Positions 13,963-23,527 of a stretch of DNA of 64,000 bases are shown here, in pieces. The DNA lies in the NCBI GenBank assembly GCA_016283575.1, contig JAEEND010000007.1, forward strand, positions 124,001-188,000, given 5' to 3'. The notes under the pieces are model-generated. The model searched no databases and had not been told where the DNA came from. It saw nothing but the letters and a program-made list of their open reading frames with translations. The DNA is from Lachnospiraceae bacterium (GTDB lineage Bacteria > Bacillota > Clostridia > Lachnospirales > Lachnospiraceae). Position 1 is the first letter of the stretch. The number at the start of each line of letters is the position of its first letter. Position numbers and translations under genes: made by a program.

Positions 13963-14030
13963 ATCAAACCTCCTTGCATGCTTAGTTAGAGGGCGTTATC
14001 GTTCATCACATGAACCATTCTTTTTGCTTT

Positions 14031-14108
14031 GTTATATCTTGTTATATCTTTGGAATTTTGTTATATCTTGTTATATCTTTGATTTCATGTTATATCTTGT
14101 TATATCTT
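14031..14108. repeat. Six GTTATATCTT repeats in three evenly spaced pairs
   Basis: GTTATATCTT occurs at 14031, 14041, 14060, 14070, 14089 and 14099. Members of a pair are 10 bp apart and pairs repeat every 29 bp, with no exception. The 8-bp core GTTATATC is close to palindromic. The block sits between the divergent ATPase and XRE regulator genes, in a 372-bp gap. It resembles an iteron set or a cooperative operator. Confidence 0.9.
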
Positions 14109-14334
14109 TTGTCAACAAACCGAGGACTGGACCATCTTCTGAGCATTGTATTTGCTTAGCTATCTCCTTAGACGTTTCGCAAAAGTGCTGAGAAGTAGAA
14201 GGTCAATTATTGCTTGAGTGCCTTTTTATAAACTCAATTATCAATTGATATACTTTTTTCGGTTCTTGTCCTACAATTTAGTTGTGTTAAAACACCGGCC
14301 GATGATAATTACAAACTAAAAGGATGGTAAAAAT

Positions 14335-15768: not shown

Positions 15769-16068
15769 TATCGCAATTATGAAATCCAAGTCAAATTTGC
15801 GACAAATTATTGCGTGTATCTATATGACTTGTTTCTGTTGTATCGCTATACGAAATATGAGCTTACACTGCGATATAAATTTATACAATTTCATGGGTTT
15901 TTGATTTGATTTATCGCAATACGAAAAGCGGAACAATTCTGCGATAAGAATTCGCGGATTCTGTATCGCAATTCGTTACGAGAATCACATTGCGATAAAT
16001 GGTTTACATAACACAAAGAAAACCACTGTTCTGTATCGCAAATTCACGTGGTAATCTACAATGCGATA
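15769..16068. repeat. Periodic array 1: five inverted TATCGC...GCGATA blocks
   Basis: Framed blocks lie at 15769-15804, 15841-15875, 15912-15946, 15964-15997 and 16034-16068. Each starts with TATCGC and ends with GCGATA (GCGACA in the first), giving 34-36 bp per block. The unframed spacers are 36, 36, 17 and 36 bp. Block interiors are not conserved beyond the AT-rich bases next to the hexamers. Spacer four and the sequence after block five both carry GGTTTACATAAC-CAA. The array fills most of the roughly 500-bp gap between the HAD gene and the DUF218 gene. Confidence 0.9.
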
Positions 16069-16129
16069 CAACGGTTTACATAACTCAAAAAGGCAAGAAG
16101 TCAAAGCTCATGCCACCACCATAACTCAA

Positions 16130-17700: not shown

Positions 17701-19494
17701 ATGTATTATTCTGCAGGAACTTATGAGGCATTTGCCCGTCCGGAGAAGCCGGAATATGCAGATCAGACTTCTGCATATATTATAGGAACGGGCCTTGCAG
17801 GTCTGTCAGCAGCATTTTATCTCGTAAGAGACGGTCAGGTGAAGGGCGAAAACATTCATCTGCTTGAAAAACTTGAGCTTGCAGGCGGAAGCTGTGACGG
17901 AAGGAAAGATGTACGAAAGGGATTCTACATGCGTGGCGGTCGAGAGATGGACAACCATTTTGAATGTATGTGGGATTTGTTCCGCGATGTGCCCTCCATT
18001 GAGACACCCGGTATTTCGGTGCTGGATGAATACTATTGGTTAAACAAGCATGATCCCAATTATTCTTTATGTCGAGCATCTGAGAAGCGCGGTCAGGACG
18101 CACATACCGACAGAAAGTTTGGACTTGATAAGGCTTCGGCTCTTGCTTTGTCCAAGCTCTTTATGACACCTGAAAAAGAACTTGAAAATAAAAAGATTTC
18201 AGAAGTGCTTCCCGATTCTTTCTGGAGCACCAATTTCTGGCTTTATTGGCAGACAATGTTTGCTTTCCAGAGATGGTCATCGGCACTTGAAATGAAAAGA
18301 TATCTGTGCAGATACTGTCATCATATTGATGGACTTCCCGATTTTTCAGCATTGAGATTCACTAAATACAATCAGTATGAGAGCATGATTCTTCCGTTAG
18401 TTAAGTATCTAGAAGCTCATGGTGTAAGGGTTGAATACGGCATAGATGTCAAGAACGTGCTGATTTCAGAACGTAACGGAAAGAAGCTTGCTGAAAAGAT
18501 TATTTATGAAAAAGAAGGAAAAGAAGAGAGTATCGACCTTGGCGAGCACGATCTTGTGTTCATTACCAACGGAAGCTGTACGGATACTTCCTGTTACGGA
18601 GATCAGACCACTGCGCCGGATCTTTCAAAAGTAAAGCCGGGATACGGAGAAGCCTGGGATCTTTGGAAGAATATCGCAAAGCAGGCAAAGCACGGTGAGT
18701 ACGGCCGTCCTGAAACCTTCTGTTCAGACCCCGAAGCAACCAACTGGATGAGCGCCACCATAGAAACATCCGACGAAGAGATTATTCAAAAGATTATCGG
18801 TGTATGTAAGCGTGATCCCAGAGACGGTAAAGTTACTACAGGCGGTATCGTAACGGTAAAGGACAGTACCGATAACTGGTATCTTTCCTGGACAATTAAT
18901 CGTCAGCCGCAGTTCAAGGCTCAGGATAAAAACACCGTTCTTGTGTGGGTTTATGCTTTAAGCACCAATAAGCCCGGAAATTTCGTGAAAAAGGCAATGC
19001 GTAATTGTACAGGCGAAGAAGTGTGTGAAGAGTGGCTCTATCACATTGGTGTGTCTTCAGATAAGATTGAAAATTATGCAAAGAATCGCTGCAATACCAC
19101 CACATGTTACATGCCCTATGTAAATGCTTTCTTCCAGCCGAGAAAAGAATCAGACCGACCTTTGGTTGTACCTAAGGGCTCTGCCAACTTCGCATTTATC
19201 GGTCAGTTCGCTGAAACACCGAGAGATACCATATTTACAACAGAGTATTCCATCCGTACCGGCATGGAAGCAGTCTACACCTTAATGAATGTGGACCGTG
19301 GCGTTCCTGAAGTATGGGGCTCTCAGTATGATGTGAGAGAGCTGCTTCGTGCCTGCTTCTACGCAGTTGATAAAAAGGATGTTTCCGAACTCCCTTTGAA
19401 CATGAAAGAAAAGTTCTTACTAAAGAAGGTCTTAAAAGCAGTTCAAGGAACAGATGTAGAGCTGTTACTTAAGAACAGTGGTTTAATAAAATAA
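17701..19494 (+). CDS. Oleate hydratase (myosin-cross-reactive antigen family)
   Basis: The protein (597 residues from the chosen start) is an FAD-dependent fatty acid hydratase. It adds water to the cis-9 double bond of unsaturated fatty acids to give 10-hydroxy acids, which detoxifies them. It starts MYYSAGTYEAFARPEKP, has the FAD motif GTGLAG at 29-34 and the family hallmark RGGREMDNHFECMWDLF. I chose ATG 17701, ten bases after AAAGGAG, because family members begin MYYS. GTG 17692 and ATG 17695 are too close to that site. The family is known from rumen and gut bacteria exposed to dietary fatty acids. Confidence 0.92.
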   Translation: MYYSAGTYEAFARPEKPEYADQTSAYIIGTGLAGLSAAFYLVRDGQVKGENIHLLEKLELAGGSCDGRKDVRKGFYMRGGREMDNHFECMWDLFRDVPSIETPGISVLDEYYWLNKHDPNYSLCRASEKRGQDAHTDRKFGLDKASALALSKLFMTPEKELENKKISEVLPDSFWSTNFWLYWQTMFAFQRWSSALEMKRYLCRYCHHIDGLPDFSALRFTKYNQYESMILPLVKYLEAHGVRVEYGIDVKNVLISERNGKKLAEKIIYEKEGKEESIDLGEHDLVFITNGSCTDTSCYGDQTTAPDLSKVKPGYGEAWDLWKNIAKQAKHGEYGRPETFCSDPEATNWMSATIETSDEEIIQKIIGVCKRDPRDGKVTTGGIVTVKDSTDNWYLSWTINRQPQFKAQDKNTVLVWVYALSTNKPGNFVKKAMRNCTGEEVCEEWLYHIGVSSDKIENYAKNRCNTTTCYMPYVNAFFQPRKESDRPLVVPKGSANFAFIGQFAETPRDTIFTTEYSIRTGMEAVYTLMNVDRGVPEVWGSQYDVRELLRACFYAVDKKDVSELPLNMKEKFLLKKVLKAVQGTDVELLLKNSGLIK

Positions 19495-19508: not shown

Positions 19509-19549
19509 GTATCCCAATATGAAGATTTGACTCATATTGGGATACTTTT
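19509..19549 (+). terminator. Hairpin of the array-2 type after oleate hydratase
   Basis: GTATCCCAATATGA at 19509-19522 and TCATATTGGGATAC at 19532-19545 form a perfect 14-bp stem with a 9-nt loop, followed by TTTTGTTT. It probably terminates the oleate hydratase transcript. Its ends, GTATCCC and GGGATAC, and its 37-nt length are those of the blocks in the array at 21731-22053. Confidence 0.85.
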
Positions 19550-21191: not shown

Positions 21192-21644
21192 TCAAAGCTT
21201 ATACTGCATGAAGTTTCCGTTATGGGTAAATCCATAAGCGGTGTAGAGCTTAACGCCCATGTCGGAGGCTGTAATCTGAACTGCACCGCAACCGTAGTTT
21301 CTTGCTTCCGTGACTACTCTGTCAAGAAGTTCTTTTGCAATGCCTTGACGCCTGTATGCAGGATCCGTGAACATGCTTGAAAGGAGTCCTAATTTCCCGC
21401 TGGGGCATCCGAAATACGGTGGCTTCTCTACAAAGGACATTCCGCTTGTTCCGATAATTTTACCGTCGTCAAGCGCAAGCCAGGATACAAAGGTTCCATC
21501 AGCCATATGGCGCTCGTAATAGTCCTTAAGAGCAGGCGCAAGGTCAAAATCTTCCTTGGCTCCTTCTTCTCTAAGCTGATTTATCCGCATCTGTATGAAT
21601 GAGTCCAGATCTTCTTTAGTAAGTTTCCTATATGAAATATTCAC
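21192..21644 (-). CDS. GNAT family N-acetyltransferase
   Basis: The product has 150 residues from the chosen GTG start (NISYRKLTKEDLDSFIQMR). It has the GNAT acetyl-CoA loop in DPAYRRQGIAKELLDRV and the C-terminal VKLYTAYGFTHNGNFMQYKL. The substrate is unknown. I chose GTG at 21644-21642 because AGAGGAG lies eight bases before it. A longer in-frame ATG at 21722 adds 26 residues but has no site and runs to the edge of the periodic array. Confidence 0.83.
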   Translation of the reverse strand: MNISYRKLTKEDLDSFIQMRINQLREEGAKEDFDLAPALKDYYERHMADGTFVSWLALDDGKIIGTSGMSFVEKPPYFGCPSGKLGLLSSMFTDPAYRRQGIAKELLDRVVTEARNYGCGAVQITASDMGVKLYTAYGFTHNGNFMQYKL

Positions 21645-21730
21645 GCCGATTACTCCTCTTTTTATAATAGATGCCATAGCTGCAAAAAATGGTTCTATAT
21701 CCCGAATTGTTACTATAGACATGTTTGATT

Positions 21731-22053
21731 GTATCCCTATACGGAATTATATCATGAATTGGGATATGGTTAGTATCCTGATGGTGTAGAGAATTAAGAT
21801 ATGTATCCCTATAGGGAAAACAACTGGTATTGGGATACAATCGCAAGTAATAAAGAATGAAGAATCATGAATTCTATCCCAAAACAAGAAATTCGCTTAT
21901 ATTGGGATACAATCACAATATAAGCATCGAGTAGGCATGAGGAATCTATCCCAAAATAAGGTTTGAAATCATATAGGGATACGAAACCCGAAAAGCACAT
22001 GAAACCATGCAAAATACATATCCCAATTTCAAAGAAGTTCCATATAGGGATAC
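21731..22053. repeat. Periodic array 2: five inverted TATCCC...GGGATA blocks
   Basis: Framed blocks lie at 21731-21767, 21803-21838, 21875-21910, 21947-21982 and 22019-22053. Block starts are spaced exactly 72 bp apart four times. Each block begins with TATCCC (preceded by G in the first two) and ends with GGGATAC (GGGATAT in the first). The unframed spacers are 35-36 bp. Beyond the heptamers only AT-rich flanks are shared, with right flanks of the form AT-T-GGGATAC. The array occupies the gap between the GNAT gene (minus) and the MATE gene (plus). Confidence 0.95.
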
Positions 22054-22180: not shown

Positions 22181-23527
22181 ATGCAAAGCTTCGAAGGTAA
22201 AATCTTAAAAGAAACTGTAAATATGGCTTGGCCTGCTGTGGTAGAGTCTTTTTTTGCTGCATTTGTTGCTCTTATTGATTCCTATATGGTAAGCGACCTC
22301 GGCAGTAATGCCGTAGCGGCGGTGGGTCTTACCACGCAGCCAAAGCTTATGGGCCTTTCGCTGTTCTTTGCGATAAATGTGGCGCTTTCCGCTCTTGTAG
22401 CAAGAAGAAAGGGTGAAGGCAACCGTGAAAATGCCAATAAGATTCTGGTGTCCGCCCTTCTTTTTATTGTATTGGCAGCAGCAACCATAAGCGTCCTGCT
22501 TGTGGTATTTGCAGGAGATGTTATCAGGTTCTGCGGATCCAATGCCGACACCCACGATGCTGCCACGGCGTATTTCAGGATCATCATGGGCGGAATGATC
22601 TTTAACTGTATCCAAATGGGGGTCAATGCTTCACAGCGCGGTGCGGGAAATACCAAGATCACCATGCGCACCAATGTGACTTCCAACATAGTTAATATCA
22701 TCTTTAACTATCTTCTCATCGGCGGTAAATTCGGATTTCCGGCTCTCGGCGTACGGGGCGCGGCTCTCGCAACAGTCCTTGGTACCGTTGTTGCCTGCGT
22801 CATGAGCATTCTTTCTCTTTTTGAAAAGAATTGTTTTGTGAGCATTCCGTTTATAATAAAGAATAAGATCCTTCCCTCCCTTGAATCCTTCAAGTCAATG
22901 GTAAGGGTCGGTTATTCCGTATTTTTTGAGCAGATCTTAATGCGTATCGGATTTATGGCGACGGCCATGATGGCGGCAGATATGGGTACAGCTCAGATGG
23001 CGGCCCATCAGGTGGGCATGAATATCATGAGCCTTTCTTTTTCCTTCGGTGACGGACTACAGTCAACTGCGGTTGCCCTGATCGGAAGGAGCCTCGGAGA
23101 AGGTGACGAGGATCTTGCAAAAGAATATGGACGCACCTGCAGAATGCTGGGAATGGTGATTTCGATATGTCTTGCCTTTCTATATTTCTTCGGAGGACGA
23201 CCTCTTATGTCGGCATTCTTTGAGGAGCGTAAGATCATAGAGATCGGCGTCGGCATAACCCGAATTATAATTCCGATCGTAATATTTCAGGTGTCACAGG
23301 TTATTTACATGGGATGCCTTCGAGGCGCCGGAGATACGGGATATACAGCCATGGCATCCATCATCAGTGTTACAATAATAAGAACCTTCTTTTCGTATCT
23401 TTGCGGTTACTGGCTGGGCTTTGGGATCAACGGTGTCTGGATGGGAATACTTGCCGATCAGATGTCGAGATTCTTTTTTGGCTCCATCAGATTTAAGCAG
23501 GGAAAATGGACGAAAATTAAGATATAA
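22181..23527 (+). CDS. MATE-family multidrug efflux transporter
   Basis: The 448-residue protein has twelve predicted membrane segments in two homologous halves. MATE landmarks are PAVVESFFAAFVALIDSYMVS near the N-terminus and QMGVNASQRGAGNTKITM at about 145-165, repeated in the second half as QVIYMGCLRGAGDTGYTAM. MATE pumps exchange cationic drugs or metabolites for Na+ or H+ across the membrane. No clear RBS is seen before the ATG. The periodic array lies in the upstream region, so array-dependent regulation of this gene is possible. Confidence 0.9.
   Translation: MQSFEGKILKETVNMAWPAVVESFFAAFVALIDSYMVSDLGSNAVAAVGLTTQPKLMGLSLFFAINVALSALVARRKGEGNRENANKILVSALLFIVLAAATISVLLVVFAGDVIRFCGSNADTHDAATAYFRIIMGGMIFNCIQMGVNASQRGAGNTKITMRTNVTSNIVNIIFNYLLIGGKFGFPALGVRGAALATVLGTVVACVMSILSLFEKNCFVSIPFIIKNKILPSLESFKSMVRVGYSVFFEQILMRIGFMATAMMAADMGTAQMAAHQVGMNIMSLSFSFGDGLQSTAVALIGRSLGEGDEDLAKEYGRTCRMLGMVISICLAFLYFFGGRPLMSAFFEERKIIEIGVGITRIIIPIVIFQVSQVIYMGCLRGAGDTGYTAMASIISVTIIRTFFSYLCGYWLGFGINGVWMGILADQMSRFFFGSIRFKQGKWTKIKI

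Follow-up and report, generated by a model that had tools for sequence, protein, structure and literature searches.

Among short repeats within a genome that are served by an enzyme of their own, the REP and REPIN sequences are the best known, and the enzymes are HUH transposases. In the NIME/dRS3 repeats of Neisseria and the BOX elements of pneumococcus, short inverted repeats frame variable spacers and the copy number is modular, and the BIMEs of E. coli and its relatives are bound by gyrase or IHF. According to the published description, RAYT genes invariably lie between two inverted REPs, co-evolve with them and evolve fast (PMC2817692). REPINs were characterized as REP doublets that are linked to RAYTs (PMC3116915), and the TnpA-REP proteins as HuH enzymes processing single-stranded REP sequences (PMC8266576). 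GTAG- and CGTC-tagged repeats have been surveyed, and the main text of that survey contains neither Firmicutes nor the stems Clostridi- and Lachnospir- (PMC3733652). A literature search with half-site strings, BIME/gyrase, Lachnospiraceae repeats, REPIN/RAYT and endonuclease-linked repeats as topics showed that, among the matches listed, the elements reported here were undescribed.

The locus under study lies in a stretch of 64,000 nt from a Lachnospiraceae genome, which was analyzed as a whole and is called the window. The original prediction had described a strictly periodic array of inverted TATCCC and GGGATA half-sites in this window, directly upstream of a MATE exporter gene. The array, named C-class after its half-sites TATCCC/GGGATA, and its surroundings are as follows.

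21732..22052, no strand: C-class array of five blocks of 34-35 bp (21732-21766, 21804-21837, 21875-21909, 21947-21981, 22019-22052) with 37-bp spacers
19510..19544, no strand: lone C-class block, just past an ORF ending at 19494
21192..21722, minus strand: GNAT-family ORF, leftward neighbor, given as context; its true start is probably further in
22181..23527, plus strand: MATE-family gene, rightward neighbor, given as context, with no functional tie to the array shown

The periodic array is real. The pattern TATCCC-N22-24-GGGATA matched six times in the window, five times in the array and once in the lone block, compared with 0.00 matches in 100 dinucleotide shuffles. The distances from block start to block start are 72, 71, 72 and 72 bp, so that the spacing is nearly regular, but not exactly 72 bp as predicted. 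The number of five blocks was correct, whereas the predicted sizes of 35-37 bp for the blocks and 35-36 bp for the spacers had to be revised to the values above. The half-sites alternate in orientation, as had been claimed, but the whole blocks do not; they converge on the center, with the polarity > (ambiguous) < < <. Only the half-sites are conserved in this array, and the interiors of the blocks differ.

The array is flanked by the GNAT-family gene and the MATE gene, and 128 bp separate its last block from the MATE ORF. The predicted position upstream of the MATE gene was thus correct, but a link to this gene is unsupported because no array precedes its orthologues in the genomes G007 and G015 within 520 nt (170 nt only are available in G006) and because other arrays adjoin many different genes. 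The gene across the array site from the MATE gene differs between G007/G015 and the genome of the window, G000, and therefore these loci do not offer a clean empty site. The original prediction overlooked the convergent polarity, the genome-wide family, a second class of element within the window and a linked gene.

In the whole G000 genome (2.21 Mb, 31 contigs), the TATCCC/GGGATA pattern (N20-26) was found 67 times and the reversed-pattern control 0 times, showing that the array belongs to an interspersed family and is no local oddity. A few of the 67 single matches, e.g., C15:47320, look like chance. Among 18 genomes of the genus, the pattern is also abundant in G015 (39 matches), G006 (31) and G007 (15), and the remaining 14 genomes contain 0 to 5 matches, with controls of 0 to 1. 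A stricter two-block pattern was matched in 9 of 396 sampled genomes of the family, with forward/reverse counts of 47/49 in G000, 30/28 in G015 and 1 or 2 in each of the other seven; the reversed control matched once each in 2 genomes. A scan of GTDB contigs retrieved seven stretches. Five are from the sheep-rumen MAG Lachnospiraceae RGIG6987, which we take to be G006. The others, from Lachnoclostridium sp. An196 and a Rhodobacteraceae MAG, contain a single exact block apiece and are probably chance matches. With the queries used, no array was matched in phages and viral contigs. Several contigs of G000 break in or beside arrays (the end of C16 and the starts of C20 and C27), and the true copy number in G000 is therefore probably higher.

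Some further repeats and positions were recorded on the way. In L010 (G000:C20), the tmRNA gene is about 240 bp away from an array (positions 159-348 and 585-922). G011 contains another regularly spaced array (C88, about 14200; L145), whose longer units end in TTACGGAA/TTCCGTAA and which perhaps represents a further class. In the window, a tandem repeat of about 8 copies of TTGTTATATC occupies positions 14028-14109, upstream of a helix-turn-helix-like ORF.

The canonical element, the form of nearly all those seen in G006, G007 and G015, consists of four blocks and spans about 226 bp, and its block starts are 70-72, 51-52 and 70-72 bp apart. Exceptions are L063 with two blocks, L072 with three found, L162 with five, and elements with shortened spacers. 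The blocks are directional, with an outer half TATCCC[A/T]ATAYG... and an inner half ...TTGGGATA, and they converge on the center of the element (> > < <). This polarity was shared by 107 of the 113 decisive blocks of 32 four-block elements; 15 blocks were ties and 6 had the contrary polarity (one each in L053, L057, L061 and L071, two in L162). The arrays of G000 vary in block number, with up to 11 exact blocks. The array of C10 has 4 right-facing blocks followed by 7 left-facing blocks, that of C16 has 7 followed by 1, and the order of > before < is kept in 11 of 11 G000 arrays when blocks with two mismatches are set aside. Adjacent units are nearly identical in some of them, which indicates tandem growth.

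The 157 inter-block distances below 95 bp fell into four types, i.e., 51/52 bp (35 times), 61 bp (4 times), 70-73 bp (116 times) and 82/83 bp (twice), with none between. This count excludes longer distances (161 bp in L007, for example) as well as C-class blocks that have two mismatches. The 61-bp cases result from spacers that are about ten bases shorter and apparently represent three separate events (L063; the paralogues L160 and L164; L165). All four types fit a period of about 10.2-10.5 bp; a p-value for the phasing is not given because the types number only four and the sequences that supply most of the distances are related. Spacing steps of about one helical turn would place the blocks on one face of the duplex and favor binding by a protein over an RNA structure. 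Half-sites and spacing persist in the orthologous elements of G006, G007 and G015, and the spacers and flanks drift. In a pair of paralogous G007 elements, the similarity covers the stretch bounded by the outer blocks and ends there. Neither a target-site duplication nor a clean empty site was resolved in the loci compared.

The second class was found by tracking a motif, here called X motif (GTTATGTMAACC), which led to elements with TATCGC/GCGATA half-sites and identical geometry. One complete element of this G-class lies in the window itself.

15841..16068, no strand: four-block G-class element, blocks at 15841-15875, 15912-15946, 15964-15997 and 16034-16068, distances 71, 52 and 70 bp
16001..16012, minus strand: X motif GGTTTACATAAC (GTTATGTAAACC on the minus strand) in a spacer of the element
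16073..16084, minus strand: second X motif, 72 bp from the first and just outside the last block

A decayed extra block appears, by eye, just upstream of this element near 15769. The X motif or a near variant occurs in an outer spacer of 28 of the 32 four-block elements, exactly in 16, and 32 of 34 copies lie 4-6 bases from the inner block. The four elements that lack it are all G-class; motifs of this type are also present in the elements of G005, and the exact motif is absent from the C-class arrays of G000. Six genomes contain 15-23 matches each, with reversed-pattern controls of 0-1, and as many of these look coding, matches outside elements were not counted as evidence. The motif resembles a Firmicutes dif arm. 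Its interpretation as a XerD arm was dropped since a full dif-like site, TAANNNNNNTTATGTWAACT (XerC arm, 6-bp center and XerD arm; 28 bp), was found 0 times in G000, G006, G007, G015 and G011 and once in G005, i.e., is absent from five of six genomes. A likeness to a DnaA box, which TTATCCCAAT may have, was also considered. GTTWACATAAC-like motifs are tightly clustered before a gene in L153, L154 and L155 (G006, G007 and G015); they resemble a cluster of operators, a hint that a regulator acts at the X motif. Several elements (e.g., L053, L065 and L073) have a GGCAAAAGAAAG-like motif close to one end, and it is also found at the element-free L100.

Each of the 32 four-block elements is uniform in class (21 C-class, 11 G-class), with at most one mismatch per block to its own class, compared with the two expected of a block from the other class. 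Of the 33 loci submitted to this test, L072 yielded no four-block set and was not kept; the two-block remnant L063 was not submitted. The TATCGCA pattern was found 35 times in G007, 6 times in G000, 4 times each in G006 and G015, once in G009 and 0 times in the other 13 genomes. Both classes are present in G007 and G000, and G006 and G015 have one G-class element each. G005 has no TATCCC arrays; its elements have TACTCC or GCTCCC half-sites, and the ACTCC pattern occurs 13 times in this genome versus 0 to 2 times in the other 17. In L136 of G005, the outer and inner half-sites appear unlike by eye.

At four orthologous loci the class differs between two sister species.

Locus A: G-class in G007 (L114), C-class in G015 (L073), also C-class in G006 (L053)
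Locus D: G-class in G007 (L161), C-class in G015 (L072)
Locus E: G-class in G007 (L163), C-class in G015 (L067), also C-class in G006 (L055)
Locus F: G-class in G007 (L159), C-class in G015 (L074)

Spacers and blocks were compared across classes at loci A, E and F in five comparisons; locus D was unscored as L072 has no four-block set. The spacer scores were 0.26-0.50, and 3 of the 5 exceeded the 95th percentile (0.315) of 226 non-orthologous cross-class pairs (mean 0.136, sd 0.103, maximum 0.406). For the block interiors the scores were 0.22-0.38 versus a mean of 0.261 (sd 0.070), and 1 of 5 exceeded the 95th percentile of 0.369. The spacers at switched loci thus tend to look homologous in place while the blocks differ, although spacer similarity can also be absent in an orthologous pair of the same class (L162/L166, 0.05). 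Flank identity over 600 bp was 93.8 and 93.1% on one side of loci A and D, 79.5 and 88.2% on the two sides of E, and 67.1% on one side of F, which is the side of the gene described below; a contig end truncates F on its opposite side. The remaining flanks of switched loci gave 72.9% over 59 columns and 89.2% over 287, and three unswitched loci had 89.3-97.5% over about 600 columns. This pattern of spacers, blocks and flanks in a small sample suggests that the class would switch through exchange of divergent alleles by recombination, and not through eight half-sites mutating in step.

A gene family adjoining the elements encodes proteins of about 256 amino acids, for which we coined the label BAP. 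In the stretches fetched around elements, the gene lies 32-121 bp from an element in all six close homologues from five genomes, measured from its last or first codon to the nearest block. The gap is 32-33 bp at locus A (L053 of G006, L114 of G007) and locus F (L074 of G015, L159 of G007), 58 bp in G005 (L172) and 121 bp in G000 (L009). That loci A and F share the gap of 32-33 bp is consistent with transmission as a cassette. In 5 of 6 cases the element lies 3' of the gene; the G000 gene lies between two arrays, with 121 bp to that on the 5' side and about 1.06 kb to that on the 3' side. Three ORF families within 2.5 kb of arrays recur in three of 30 locus groups, and the median distance to the array is 34 bp for BAP and about 1.2 and 1.0 kb for the two others. 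No homologue (E<=1e-3) was found in the window plus 400 kb of element-blind control, which was taken from G000 only, and none in the G011 stretches L117 and L173. A distant homologue with 28% identity lies 3.7 kb from the element in L160. The adjacency suggests that the BAP gene and the sites form one system.

No Pfam or NCBIfam profile matched the BAP family above cut-off. The C-terminal half matches PDC-S68, a PADLOC candidate comprising large proteins, in all six members (best 1.2e-31). The alignment pairs residues 127-249 with the C-terminal end of this model, whose N-terminal part of about 1000 residues is missing in BAP. The HEAT_CxxC_PDDEXK profile matches 3 of 6 members. Invariant residues include E150, P179-D180, E190 and W194-E195-H196, and the lysine of the E-x-K motif is not conserved. 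A single-sequence AF2 model was confident for residues 1-94 only (a helix, two strands and a long helix) and unusable beyond; Foldseek with this model gave no meaningful match (best E 0.09), and a sequence search of the PDB gave none. BAP is predicted to consist of an N-terminal helix/beta-hairpin/helix domain and a PD-(D/E)XK-like C-terminal domain. Weak relatives of the C-terminal part are present in 6 plasmid records, 3 phage records and 3 viral contigs. A link of the elements to a RAYT in G000 was considered and rejected, as the sole Y1_Tnp match adjoins a different, unrelated repeat. This Y1_Tnp/RAYT-like gene, in L014 (G000:C25 around 104300), lies amid copies of a repeat of about GGGGACGGGGTTCCTGGTCC, probably an ordinary REPtron.

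The BAP proteins follow element class in part, as judged from four sequences of G006, G007 and G015. The two proteins next to C-class elements (G006 locus A, G015 locus F) are 76% identical and the two G007 copies next to G-class elements 79%, whereas identities across classes at the same locus are 66-70%. The G007 pair had tree support of 98/97 and the C pair 91/89, the latter under the starred level of the tool. Grouping by locus was rejected for A (p-AU 6.7e-8) and F (1.4e-8), while a species-tree-like grouping of G015 with both G007 copies was only just rejected (p-AU 0.046); the identities were already known when these groupings were put to the test. Homogenization of the two G007 copies is therefore an alternative that would account for some of the pattern. 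The protein of G000 departs from the grouping, as it lies beside C-class arrays but falls outside both pairs, with 45.7% identity to the G-class versus 41-43% to the C-class proteins. One BAP type was seen per genome, though G007 and G000 carry both classes. The four BAP genes are 68-75% identical in DNA, compared with 97.3% (G015-G007) and 90.9-92.1% (with G006) for PurF, and BAP thus diverges or is exchanged faster than PurF.

We lean, by a small measure, toward reading these results as a system akin to REPINs and BIMEs whose partner, BAP, is unrelated and non-HUH, and consider this the best reading. Four dyad-symmetric blocks of about 34 bp, all facing the same side of the helix, would form a platform for an oligomeric, sequence-specific protein. 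The protein on the blocks would most likely be BAP, and the class of the element (TATCCC, TATCGC or the half-sites of G005) would then reflect BAP specificity. Similarly to RAYTs and REPINs, one or two BAP genes with a neighboring element would coexist with solo elements, which may duplicate as units of about 220-230 bp into intergenic DNA and then be kept. Element-plus-BAP units and solo elements could both spread as units, and in G000 copies have additionally been lengthened by tandem duplication, in units of 72-73 bp. Binding by BAP, its identity as the binding protein, catalysis and mobility are what we infer from the comparisons above. More tentative, and in our view falling somewhat short of an even chance, is the full proposal of a system independent of RAYT/REP, in which a PD-(D/E)XK-fold protein recognizes helically phased duplex sites of the four-block dyad element and both spreads and maintains tens of solo elements, and in which specificity classes replace each other at orthologous loci of sister species, gene and elements together.

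Among the three natures offered in the original prediction, the phased protein-binding array is best supported; a recombination or transposition array is a possible but less supported option, and a set of structured RNA elements is disfavored. Binding could also be due to a host chromosome protein, e.g., a nucleoid, segregation or supercoiling factor, in which case the adjacency of BAP would be incidental. The dyad symmetry, the spacing steps and the half-sites conserved at orthologous sites speak for such a platform, as does the X motif, which most four-block elements share with those of G005. However, class abundance differs between sister species and the classes coexist in one genome, which is not readily explained by a conserved host factor, and BAP adjoins an element in five genomes. 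We regard a host protein as unlikely, if worth keeping in view. The elements might instead be MITE-like and moved by an ordinary IS transposase, with the blocks as terminal or subterminal transposase sites. They are short, intergenic and dyad-symmetric, the paralogous pair is alike only within the element, and the G000 array next to the MATE gene has no counterpart within 520 nt in front of the G007 and G015 MATE genes. Unlike in decaying MITEs, however, half-sites are conserved in old orthologous copies, a transposase-bearing copy with a split array was absent from the loci fetched, and target-site duplications were not identified, making this explanation improbable.

If each block were a hairpin in a transcribed element, strong folding would be expected, and it is indeed predicted, with z of -4.2 and -7.0 for the two strands. 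This folding on both strands follows from the inverted half-sites, and the pairing of positions 7-10 in 361 of 512 cells is likewise expected of arms that share a half-site. One arm was changed in 8 of 128 blocks of the 32 elements, and 0 of 8 changes were compensated, pointing to recognition by a protein rather than base-pairing. The apparently unlike half-sites of L136 and the spacing steps of about 10 bp also argue against RNA, as does the position of several elements just after terminator-like hairpins (by eye). The arrays of the window and of L005-L010 had no Rfam match, the single hit being the tmRNA beside the L010 array. A role as structured RNA is thus very improbable. The least credible explanation, to which we attach next to no weight, is a degenerate CRISPR or plain minisatellite. 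It would account for a repeat-plus-spacer length near 72 bp and for the near-identical tandem units of some G000 arrays, but near-identical direct repeats are absent from the window array, where half-sites alone are conserved, the polarity flips once per array, and the dyad architecture and the canonical four-block form in other species contradict it.

In comparison with the known systems, the logic is shared with REP/REPIN-RAYT: tens of short repeats lie between genes, one copy has a linked gene for a nuclease-like protein as its neighbor, there are signs of joint change in repeat and protein, and the protein gene diverges faster than the sequence around it. The present system differs in the REP tag, in the HUH partner and in two-sided flanking. 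GTAG or CGTC was found within 8 nt outside only 8 of 256 block ends on either strand. The partner of REPs is an HUH transposase, whereas BAP is PD-(D/E)XK-like and has no Y1_Tnp (PF01797) match in Pfam. RAYTs are flanked on both sides, but blocks of the same class (at most 1 mismatch, within 900 bp) were present on one side only of 6 of 6 BAP genes. TnpA-REP recognizes single strands, while recognition of the duplex seems to operate here. With BIMEs the elements share regularly spaced, opposed units (palindromic in BIMEs), tandem growth and an intergenic location, but they differ by the convergent polarity around a single center, the spacing steps of about 10 bp and the lack of REP sequence. 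NIME/dRS3 and BOX repeats are similar in their inverted short repeats, variable spacers and modular copies; we know of no four-block dyad form or comparable linked gene in either of them. If our reading is true, the matched C and G site classes, which differ by one base pair per half-site and in the block interiors, would suit studies of recognition, and the purpose of such repeats would become testable via deletion of one gene. The elements would then represent a second, unrelated solution, with duplex recognition, fixed helical geometry and specificity switches, and the lifestyle of REPs and REPINs would have evolved more than once.
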